A stretch of 64,000 nucleotides of DNA from contig JAUHYW010000006.1 of the NCBI GenBank assembly GCA_030426085.1, positions 124,001 to 188,000 on the forward strand. The letters run 5' to 3'. This stretch comes from a bacterium. Lineage in GTDB: Bacteria; Myxococcota_A; Bradymonadia; UBA7976; UBA1532. The position numbers and the translations under genes are program-made. The notes beneath the pieces were generated by a model that did not search any database, had not been told where the DNA came from, and was given only the letters and a program-made list of their open reading frames with translations. Of this stretch, positions 34,658 to 37,975 are shown piece by piece (position 1 is the first letter of the stretch; each line of letters opens with the position of its first letter).

Positions 34658-36082
34658 TTACTGCAGCAGGGTCAGGGCGGCCTGGGTCGCCTGGTTGGCC
34701 TGAGCCAGGATCGTCGTCCCGGCCTGCTGGAGGATCTGGTTGCGGGCCAGGTCGGCGCTGGTGCTCGCGAAGTCGGCGTCCAGGATGCGGCTGCGCGAGG
34801 CCGAGAGGTTCTCCGTGACCGTGGTCAGGTTGTTGATCGTGCTCTCGAGCCGGTTCTGCAGGGCGCCGAGCCGCGAGCGGTCGCGCGAGATCTGGGCCAG
34901 GGCCCGGTCGACGACCTCGATGGTGCGGTTGGCCTGCTCCCGGTCGAGCACGGTGACGGTGTCGACCGAGTTGACGGAGTTGACCCCGACGAGCTGGGGG
35001 TTGCCGAAGCCCACCCGGGCCAGGCCGGCGCCGACCTCGTTGACGAAGAACTGGTCGGCGCTCGAGAACTCGATCCGGCCGAGGGTGACCTCTTCGTCGA
35101 GCCCGGCGATGACCGCGCCGTTGTTCTCGGTGACGACGTCGATGTTGCGCCCGTCCACGGCGGTCAGCACCAGCCGGTAGTCGGCGTCGAGGGTCGCCAC
35201 GACGCCGGTCTCGTCGCTCACGGCGTTGATCTGGGCCACCAGCTCGCCGTCGGCGTCGTCCGCCTGGACCTCGAAGCCGGTGATGATCTGGCCGTTGATC
35301 TGGATGTAGTCGTCCTCGTCGAGCACGCCGGCGGTGATGTCGTCGTTGGCGTCGTCCACCGTGGCCAGCACCCGGGCGCCGACCCCGGTGATGTCGCGGA
35401 CGTCGTTGATGGCCTGGGCCTTGGCGATGGCCGAGGCGGCGTTGAGCGTCGTCGAGACGGTGTCGTCGACGGCGACGGTCGTGCGCACGGTCACCCCGTT
35501 GACGAGCAGCGAGTTGGCCGCCTTGTCGAACGCCTCGGCGGTGACCTCGTCGCTGGTGGTGATCGCCGCCCGGCCGAGCGCGCTGGCCCGAGCGTCCTTG
35601 ACGGTCACCCCGATCTGCTCGAACGCGTTGGCCCCGACGTGGAAGAAGTTCTGCACGAAGTCGCCGTTGAGCACGTTCTGGTCGTTGAACCGGGTGGTGT
35701 CGCCGATCCGGTTGAGCTCGGCGACGAGCTGGTCGACCTCCTCGTTGAGGGCCTCGCGGTCGGCGGTGGTGTTGATGTCGTTGGCCGCCTGCACGGCGAG
35801 CTGGCGGATGCGCTGGAGGATGTTGGTGCTCTCCTGGAGGGCGCCTTCCACCGTCTGGGCCATGCTGATGCCATCGTTGGTGTTGCGCACCGCCTGGGTC
35901 AGCCCGCGGATCTGGCTGGTGAAGCGGGTCGAGATGGCGAGGCCCGCCGCGTCGTCCTTCGCGCTGTTGATGCGCAGGCCCGAGGACAGCCGCTGATACG
36001 AGGTGGACAGCTTCCTGCTGCTGTCGAGCAGGTTGCGCTGTGCGTTCAGCGAGGCGACGTTGGTGTTGACGAACAAGCCCAT
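34658..36082 (-). CDS. Flagellin 4
   Basis: The 474-residue flagellin has conserved ends ([41 protein letters not shown]-terminus [20 protein letters not shown]). The central domain is closest in pattern to flagellin 3 (both have VGANA and DFVQ blocks), suggesting that these two share a more recent duplication. It has a sigma28 promoter at 36269-36295 and a hairpin over its ribosome-binding site. Confidence 0.95.
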   Translation of the reverse strand: MGLFVNTNVASLNAQRNLLDSSRKLSTSYQRLSSGLRINSAKDDAAGLAISTRFTSQIRGLTQAVRNTNDGISMAQTVEGALQESTNILQRIRQLAVQAANDINTTADREALNEEVDQLVAELNRIGDTTRFNDQNVLNGDFVQNFFHVGANAFEQIGVTVKDARASALGRAAITTSDEVTAEAFDKAANSLLVNGVTVRTTVAVDDTVSTTLNAASAIAKAQAINDVRDITGVGARVLATVDDANDDITAGVLDEDDYIQINGQIITGFEVQADDADGELVAQINAVSDETGVVATLDADYRLVLTAVDGRNIDVVTENNGAVIAGLDEEVTLGRIEFSSADQFFVNEVGAGLARVGFGNPQLVGVNSVNSVDTVTVLDREQANRTIEVVDRALAQISRDRSRLGALQNRLESTINNLTTVTENLSASRSRILDADFASTSADLARNQILQQAGTTILAQANQATQAALTLLQ

Positions 36083-36268: not shown

Positions 36269-36295
36269 TCATCGTCCGTCACCGGCCGGTCTTGA
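36269..36295 (-). promoter_or_regulatory. Sigma28 promoter for flagellin 4
   Basis: On the minus strand TCAAGACC and GACGATGA are separated by 11 bases. The -35 core TCAAG matches the other three sigma28 sites; the -10 keeps G.CGAT.A. The predicted leader is about 180 bases. Confidence 0.75.
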
Positions 36296-36450: not shown

Positions 36451-36640
36451 CGGATCGGACCGCGCGGGGGGCGCCCGGGGGCCGCACGGGGCGGGCGGCG
36501 GTTGATCGTCAAGCGGCTGACGGCGACGGGCGAAACGCTGGCGCTCGCCTCATCGACGGCCGATGGCGCGGCGGGGCAGCAGGGTCTTCGAGCCAATGAT
36601 TTCAGGGGTTTACTATCGTGAGGGCGCCGCGTCTTCGTCC

Positions 36641-36656
36641 TGGCACGGGGGTTGAA
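36641..36656 (+). promoter_or_regulatory. Sigma54 promoter for the GAF-GGDEF gene
   Basis: The site reads TGGCACGGGGGTTGAA. The -24 box TGGCACG is perfect and the -12 box is TTGAA instead of TTGCA, with correct spacing. It lies 35 bases before the ATG at 36691, which argues against the upstream in-frame start at 36652 because that one would overlap the promoter. Confidence 0.7.
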
Positions 36657-36690: not shown

Positions 36691-37698
36691 ATGCTCCAGA
36701 ACGCCAACATCCACGACGAGATCGAGGACATGCAGCGCAAGCTCGCCTTCGCCGAGGCCTGCGCCGATCCGCTCGATTTCGACCAGCTGCTCACCCGGAC
36801 GAGCGCGCTGCTGCACAAGTGGGCCCAGGCCGACGTGGTGACGTTGATCCTGCCCCCGGAGCGGGAGGATCTGGAGCCGATGCTGCACATCTTCGGGCGC
36901 CAGCCGGTGCTGCCGCTCGCCGAGCGCAGCATCCGCGACGAGTGCGCGCTGCTGCTCGGCGAGCTGGACTTCGCCCACCTGCCCGGCGAGGCGCTGCGGC
37001 TGCGGCGGGGGCCGGAGCTGATGCCCCTGCACAGCCCGGTGCGCGACGACTACATGTACCGCTTCTGGTCCCAGGAGATGGAGGCCGACGGGCAGGTGGT
37101 GGGCATCGTGGCCCTCTTCGGCTTCACCGACTGGCTGCTCTCGCCCCGCATCCGCCGCCTGCTCGGCGCCCTGGTCCCGCCCCTGGGGCGGGCGGTGGCC
37201 AACGCGGCCTCGATCGAGGTGCTGCGGCTGTGCGCCCAGAAGGACGAGGTGACCGGGGCCTACAACCGGCGGGGCTTCGGCGAGGTGCTCGAGCGGGCCT
37301 GCGTCCGGTCGGAGGTCTTCGACGAGCCGCTCGCGCTGATGCTGTTCGACGTCGAGGAGTACGCGGCGGTGGCCGGCTCGTCCGAGGGCGAGGCGATGCT
37401 CAAGGCCCTGGCCGAGATGACCACCCACGCCGCCCGCCCGTTCGACGTCTTCGGCCGCTTCGGCGACTCCGAGTTCACCGTGCTGATGCCCAACGCCGAC
37501 GTCGACGAGGCCAGCGCCATCGCCGAGCGGCTGCTCGACGCCAGCCGCGAGGTCGAGTGCCGCGGCGGGTCGATCAACATCAACATCGGGGTGGCGCTCT
37601 ACGAGGGCGGCCCGGCGCAGTATCTGGTGCAGTCGGCCGATCAGGCGCTGTATCAGGCCAAGCGCATGGCGGTGCAGGCCGCCGGTCGGGCCGGCTGA
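36691..37698 (+). CDS. GAF-GGDEF protein with degenerate active-site motif
   Basis: The 335-residue cytoplasmic protein has a GAF-like N-terminal domain at about 25-175 and a GGDEF domain at about 183-333. Family landmarks are present: KDEVTGAYNRRGF at 184-196 and ADQALYQAKRM at 316-326. The signature is RFGDSEF at 256-262 where active enzymes have R-x-GG(D/E)EF. The second Gly is D259 and the metal-binding Asp/Glu is S260, so c-di-GMP synthesis is unlikely, although altered substrate use cannot be excluded. No inhibitory RxxD site is obvious. The ATG has a GGAGGGG ribosome-binding site and a sigma54 promoter, tying it to flagellar class II expression. Confidence 0.85.
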   Translation: MLQNANIHDEIEDMQRKLAFAEACADPLDFDQLLTRTSALLHKWAQADVVTLILPPEREDLEPMLHIFGRQPVLPLAERSIRDECALLLGELDFAHLPGEALRLRRGPELMPLHSPVRDDYMYRFWSQEMEADGQVVGIVALFGFTDWLLSPRIRRLLGALVPPLGRAVANAASIEVLRLCAQKDEVTGAYNRRGFGEVLERACVRSEVFDEPLALMLFDVEEYAAVAGSSEGEAMLKALAEMTTHAARPFDVFGRFGDSEFTVLMPNADVDEASAIAERLLDASREVECRGGSININIGVALYEGGPAQYLVQSADQALYQAKRMAVQAAGRAG

Positions 37699-37708
37699 CG
37701 TCCCGCCC

Positions 37709-37975
37709 TCACTCGCCGGGCCGGATCACCACCGCGTCGGGCGGGTCGGGCGCCGGCTGAGCCGGGTTCTCCCGGCAGGCGTTCTCGGCGCAGGTGTGGC
37801 CCGGCGGACAGTCCTCGTCCCGCTGGCAGACGAACGCCTCGCACACCCCCTCCTCGCAGATGAGAGTCCCCCCGCAATCGTAGTCGTCTTCGCACTCGGT
37901 GCAGCCGAGGCCGGTCAGGGCGACCAGCGACGCGAAGAGCCATGGGGCGAGGGCGCGCAGGGGGGCAGCGGGCAT
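37709..37975 (-). CDS. Small Cys-rich lipoprotein
   Basis: The 88-residue precursor has a signal peptide and a lipobox (LTGLGC), giving a Cys-rich mature protein. It has the pattern CEDDYDCGGTLICEEGVCEAF and then CQRDEDCPPGHTCAENACRE (each a short disulfide-rich module). Such modules are common in secreted myxobacterial proteins. Function unknown. It is convergent with the GGDEF gene. Confidence 0.7.
   Translation of the reverse strand: MPAAPLRALAPWLFASLVALTGLGCTECEDDYDCGGTLICEEGVCEAFVCQRDEDCPPGHTCAENACRENPAQPAPDPPDAVVIRPGE

Follow-up and report, generated by a model that had tools for sequence, protein, structure and literature searches.

Among the described systems closest to the locus analyzed here, PelD, a protein with membrane segments, is encoded in a polysaccharide operon. 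In Pseudomonas aeruginosa and Bacillus cereus, PelD combines a GAF domain with a degenerate GGDEF domain and binds c-di-GMP via an RxxD motif and a third arginine, and a PelD lineage has lost its GGDEF domain (PMC7112168). A degenerate motif (GVNEF) along with an intact RxxD is also found in CdgA (Bd3125) of Bdellovibrio bacteriovorus, a polar protein required for rapid prey invasion, which has no cyclase activity and binds c-di-GMP (PMC3271064). Dcsbis (PA2771) of P. aeruginosa is a highly active GAF-GGDEF cyclase in which a loop of the GAF domain blocks the I-site (PMC4937426), and CbrR of Campylobacter jejuni has receiver domains in place of GAF, an I-site reading KGRD and some reported cyclase activity. 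Degenerate GGDEF proteins are common, and the change from cyclase to receptor is usually guessed from a single end state. Our main finding is an evolutionary series, in which close relatives carry one gene, amid conserved surroundings, in an intact, a dead or a domain-less form. The switch in selection is measurable in this series, and the order in which the changes came about becomes testable (catalysis lost while the I-site and GAF domain stayed, or the entire domain lost). In the open-licence literature, we found nothing on point about a flagellin-linked GAF-GGDEF protein in myxobacteria.

The window, a stretch of 64,000 nucleotides from a genome of the Bradymonadia (contig JAUHYW010000006.1), contains a gene (36691-37698, forward strand) for a protein of 335 amino acids with a GAF domain and a degenerate GGDEF domain, whose orthologs occur in the same GTDB family. 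The ATG at 36691 was preferred as the start codon, and the alternative in-frame TTG at 36652 falls within the promoter box described below. The protein resembles PelD in its GAF domain, degenerate GGDEF domain, RxxD and third Arg, and its family likewise includes a lineage without the GGDEF domain (PMC7112168); unlike pelD, however, the gene lies beside flagellins and has a sigma54-type promoter, and the window locus is not the pel polysaccharide operon expected for a member of the PelD family. The likeness to CdgA is one of features (degenerate motif, intact RxxD) and need not reflect orthology.

The N-terminal domain (residues 1-178; 36691-37224, forward strand) is strongly conserved, and a Pfam search gave no sequence match in the residues N-terminal of GGDEF. 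A full-length AlphaFold model built from ten family sequences had a mean pLDDT of 85 and a pTM of 0.56, the latter leaving the relative placement of the two domains unfixed, and an AF2 model of the N-terminal domain alone also had a pLDDT of 85. In Foldseek searches, this separate model best matched the GAF structure 3ci6 (E 1.1e-4, TM 0.57/0.62) and also 3k2n, and the nearest structures to the whole protein were phytochrome-linked cyclases and Dcsbis (4zmu); since the separate model matches GAF structures, the N-terminal domain is a GAF fold beyond the sensitivity of the Pfam profiles. Its invariant residues include C24, E78, R79, D147 and W148. C24, in the context EACAD (36760-36762), is present in 10 of 10 GAF domains, that of the GAF-only protein included, and could be a redox or ligand contact. 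In a draw of 379 genomes from the phylum, the domain was not found outside the GTDB family except for one weak partial match (E 4.5e-5; 11 genomes were positive, this one included), and when 84,980 species genomes were scanned with a pattern, only members of the same group came up, so that a widespread domain was ruled out.

The GGDEF domain (residues 183-325; 37237-37665, forward strand) matches PF00990 at 79-81 bits (E 4.6e-22 at 79 bits, against a curated cut-off of 23.8). The initial annotation had read its active-site motif as GDSEF, and this is confirmed: in the context RF-GDSEF (residues 258-262; 37462-37476, forward strand), the second Gly has become Asp and the metal-site acid, at the position of PleD E370, has become Ser. 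The same annotation considered the other landmarks of the domain intact, which proved wrong. In PleD numbering (K332, N335, D344 and R446), the K332-type Lys is replaced by A225, the D344-type residue by E234 and the R446-type residue by V328, and the N335-type guanine loop shows an Asn-to-Ala change together with a deletion of three residues. The protein retains D220 as the first metal-site Asp, E261 as the motif Glu, K324 and, in the I-site, the RxxD residues R249 and D252. Five intact orthologs share 49 invariant GGDEF columns, only 19 of which are kept in all four degenerate ones. The set expected of a diguanylate cyclase, namely GG(D/E)EF, the guanine-binding Asn/Asp and the K332/R446-type residues, is not found in the window protein, and its catalytic activity has almost certainly been lost. 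The suggestion that the protein is a non-catalytic module is strongly supported by a clade-wide loss, four broken motifs, relaxed selection confined to the GGDEF domain and one domain-less relative. Such a module probably does not bind GTP, given that it has no guanine-recognition loop and that changes accumulate in the nucleotide-binding segment (residues 222-247); protein contact, the other half of that suggestion, and c-di-GMP binding retained via the I-site are both more likely.

The ortholog set consists of the window protein, full-length proteins from eight more genomes and, from a ninth (G006), a protein with the N-domain only, all within the same GTDB family. The genomes are recorded publicly as uncultured Myxococcales or Myxococcota MAGs, with G001 and G012 entered simply as bacterium. 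Five orthologs (G012, G005, G009, G010 and G003) have the complete catalytic set with the motif GGDEF or GGDEL and score 146-155 bits against PF00990, compared with 75-81 bits for the dead proteins, which read GDSEF in the window, GEAEF in G001, AESEF in G011 and ATNEF in G004. A tree of full-length sequences unites the four dead proteins in a single clade (100/99), whose sister is the intact G012 (98/97), and all four have the three-residue deletion in the guanine-binding loop. As this deletion and the common substitutions fit a single loss, the comparison indicates that catalysis was lost once, on the branch to the window genus and one sister genus; the motif letters differ by lineage, as would be expected once catalysis no longer mattered. 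The G006 protein has 189 residues and is GAF only, with the same sigma54-type box and a flagellin beside it, and tblastn of this locus revealed no GGDEF remnant. Since G006 is a long branch outside the dead clade, its domain loss is better read as a separate event than as a later stage, and it looks like an independent loss of the GGDEF domain.

The two halves of the protein are under different selection. For the dead pair window/G001, dN/dS was 0.083 (95% interval 0.034-0.164) for the GAF part, compared with 0.547 (0.325-0.888) for the GGDEF part, and the order was reversed in the intact pair G010/G003 (0.289 and 0.137, respectively); constraint is therefore stronger on GAF in the dead pair and on GGDEF in the intact pair. 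A 2x2 test of the redistribution of nonsynonymous changes gave p ~5e-10 for window/G001 and ~2e-10 for G011/G004, with counts rounded from proportions and synonymous sites saturated in the latter pair. Within the GGDEF domain, 14 of 26 positions in residues 222-247 changed between window and G001 versus 23 of 122 elsewhere (p 7e-4, indicative only because the segment was chosen post hoc), and residues 249-258, which include the I-site, did not change at all. The GGDEF domain is still constrained, as its interval excludes 1 and its changes cluster in 222-247, and a pseudogene was ruled out on a frame open in four genomes and a GGDEF dN/dS below 1. By this comparison, selection still protects the GAF domain and, less strictly, that half of GGDEF which holds the beta-sheet and I-site.

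An intact I-site, RPFD (residues 249-252; 37435-37446, forward strand), stands at the canonical distance from the active-site motif and is present in every one of the nine GGDEF-bearing orthologs, four degenerate and five intact. The third I-site arginine position, R280 (37528-37530, forward strand), is kept in two of the four degenerate proteins and replaced by Q in G011 and by S in G004, and its spacing of 28 residues from D252 equals that of D254 and R282 in Dcsbis (PMC4937426). With R249, D252 and R280 next to a broken active site, the window protein has the combination seen in PelD. Our leading reading, to which we give about even odds, is a pseudoenzyme of the PelD/CdgA type that would bind c-di-GMP and is joined to a strongly conserved GAF domain. 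PelD (PMC7112168) and CdgA (PMC3271064) show that this mode is possible for such a domain, and the c-di-GMP machinery of the genome counts in its favor: PF00990 has six matches, three of them besides the window gene above 130 bits with the motifs GGEEF, GGDEF and AGDEF, and profiles found two HD-GYP and ten PilZ domains and no EAL domain. Retention of RxxD supports this reading but does not establish it, because both residues would survive by chance with a probability of ~0.15, given 19 of 49 ancestral columns kept. The reading is weakened by the loss of the third arginine in G011 and G004 and by the absence of a PilZ gene beside all four dead genes, and G006 counts against it as well, since the GGDEF domain is evidently dispensable in at least one lineage.

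An account in which GAF is the working part and GGDEF a vestige, lost slowly or held because its fold aids stability or dimerization, is the next most likely, and we give it limited credence. It would explain the far lower dN/dS of the GAF part, the different residues lost in different lineages, and the survival of a GAF-only protein in G006 behind the same box and beside flagellin, a situation with a parallel in streptococcal PelD, which is likewise without the GGDEF domain (PMC7112168). A mere vestige is harder to reconcile with a GGDEF dN/dS interval lying below 1, with a frame intact in four genomes across a large divergence, and with changes that spare the stretch around the I-site and a number of core strands, and with RxxD persisting in four of four.

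Pairing of the dead GGDEF domain with that of another, active cyclase, which it would modulate, seems improbable. Degenerate GGDEF domains of Escherichia coli form specific heteromeric contacts (CdgI, CsrD; PMC5635695) and the genome encodes at least three other GGDEF proteins as possible partners, but no conserved cyclase neighbor was seen at the locus and the domain evolves fast in the dead clade. We give very little credence to continued cyclase activity, whether of the diguanylate or the cGAMP type, through an unusual motif: D220, E261 and K324 are kept, but the second motif Gly, the metal acid, the guanine loop and the K332- and R446-type residues are gone, and activity of either kind was rejected on these losses. 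Hypr cyclases have Ser at the specificity residue (the D344 position), which is Glu in the window protein, a further point against this reading. Some degenerate motifs, AGDEF and SGDEF, are nevertheless active (PMC3974145), which favors a remaining cyclase and was counted against c-di-GMP reception as the best explanation.

The divergent neighbor of the gene is a flagellin (34658-36082, reverse strand; Pfam Flagellin_N/C). Not only the window but also G001, G011, G012, G009, G003, G006 and, at a distance of 5 kb, G004 have a divergent flagellin across the promoter region; none was matched within the 20 kb taken from G005, and the contig of G010 ends too near the gene for a flagellin neighbor to be judged. 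The link to flagella is drawn from this conserved synteny and not from the promoter class. Between 27946 and 36082 (reverse strand), four different flagellin genes stand in a row, and the window also encodes flaG, fliD and fliS beyond them. In addition to the flagellins, the gene neighbors a DUF3047 gene and a small Cys-rich lipoprotein gene (37709-37975, reverse strand), which is arranged tail-to-tail with it and occupies the same place in seven related loci. Downstream in the relatives, a PD40 lipoprotein gene is found and, in several, murC/murD-like genes, which are absent there in the window.

A sigma54-type box, TGGCACG-N4-TTGAA (TGGCACGGGGGTTGAA; 36641-36656, forward strand), ends 34 bases 5' of the ATG, so that the site placed about 35 bases upstream in the initial annotation is confirmed and expression from such a promoter supported. 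It is the only site within the 64 kb window that matches 10 of 10 scored positions, and ten simulated windows contained none; compared with the -24 GG/-12 GC pattern, TGGCACG-N4-TTG matches and the C at -12 is replaced by A. In 13 family genomes, TGGCACG-N4-TTGAA occurs at 38 sites versus one for a reversed control, and TTGAA-type sites are mostly found shortly upstream of plausible start codons. The exact box, ending in TTGAA or TTGAT, precedes 8 of 10 orthologs and, with small variations allowed, 9 of 10 (G009 has the variant TGGCACA...TTGGA; G005 has a poor match only). On the strength of this enrichment, conservation and start-codon proximity, and of the single rpoN copy in the genome, the box is in all likelihood a promoter of the sigma54 type that carries A at -12.

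The same promoter had been thought to tie the gene to flagellar assembly, and this was not borne out. The genes behind other such sites in the family, named by sequence inspection, encode for the most part secreted proteins, lipoproteins and universal-stress proteins; a site in G010 precedes a gene resembling the flhA/sctV export gene, and in the genome of the window one 10/10 site lies inside flhB, 214 bp upstream of flhA (identified by Pfam). A genome scan for TGGCACG-N4-TTGMW returned nine sites, none of the others clearly flagellar, and the upstream regions of the flagellins contain no sigma54-type site; a flagellar sigma54 regulon is thus an unlikely basis of the link. The divergent flagellin instead carries a FliA-like box, TCAA-N15-GACGATGA (36269-36295, reverse strand), with a similar box in most relatives. 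Boxes of the form TCAA-N15-GACGATG, which lie ~125-280 bp 5' of flagellin and also occur in loci L031, L034, L036, L038 and L039, differ from the E. coli consensus TAAA-N15-GCCGATAA. Upstream of the sigma54-type box lies AATGATTTCA (36595-36604, forward strand), which recurs a little upstream of the box of three further orthologs, one of them with the element inverted, and may be an activator site.

Taken together, the ancestor was a GAF-GGDEF protein whose diguanylate cyclase site was complete, encoded back-to-back with flagellin behind its own sigma54-type promoter. Along with the single catalytic loss, the comparison shows deletion of the guanine-binding loop and then separate drift of the active-site motif in each lineage. 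In its most likely mode, as a receiver and not a maker, the protein would bind c-di-GMP from elsewhere in the cell at R249, D252 and R280, which would alter a dimer or partner contact, with the GAF domain as a second input; its sigma54 expression and its position beside flagellin suggest that the output could act on filament production or swimming. That the locus represents an undescribed flagellin-linked family, so far seen in one myxococcal family, that is changing from an enzyme into a c-di-GMP receptor and on into a GAF-only regulator with promoter and place kept, is a tentative proposal about which we are rather doubtful. If true, it would really be the GAF domain that controls flagellar output, and the synthesis of c-di-GMP would be a replaceable accessory.

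The four genomes with dead genes have 4-6 GGDEF and 4-10 PilZ matches, compared with 10-16 and 16-26 in those with intact genes (except a genome of 67% completeness, which has 4 and 11), a contrast that is a lead and not a test because genome sizes and completeness differ. A PilZ partner was rejected because the correlation is weak, a PilZ gene also being absent beside the intact G005 and G009. Where a PilZ gene adjoins the GAF-GGDEF gene, or its GGDEF-less counterpart in G006, as in G012, G010 and G003, it was found at L034:7068-7487, L037:7172-7636, L039:13522-13908 (reverse strand) and approximately L038:11351-11746 (forward strand).
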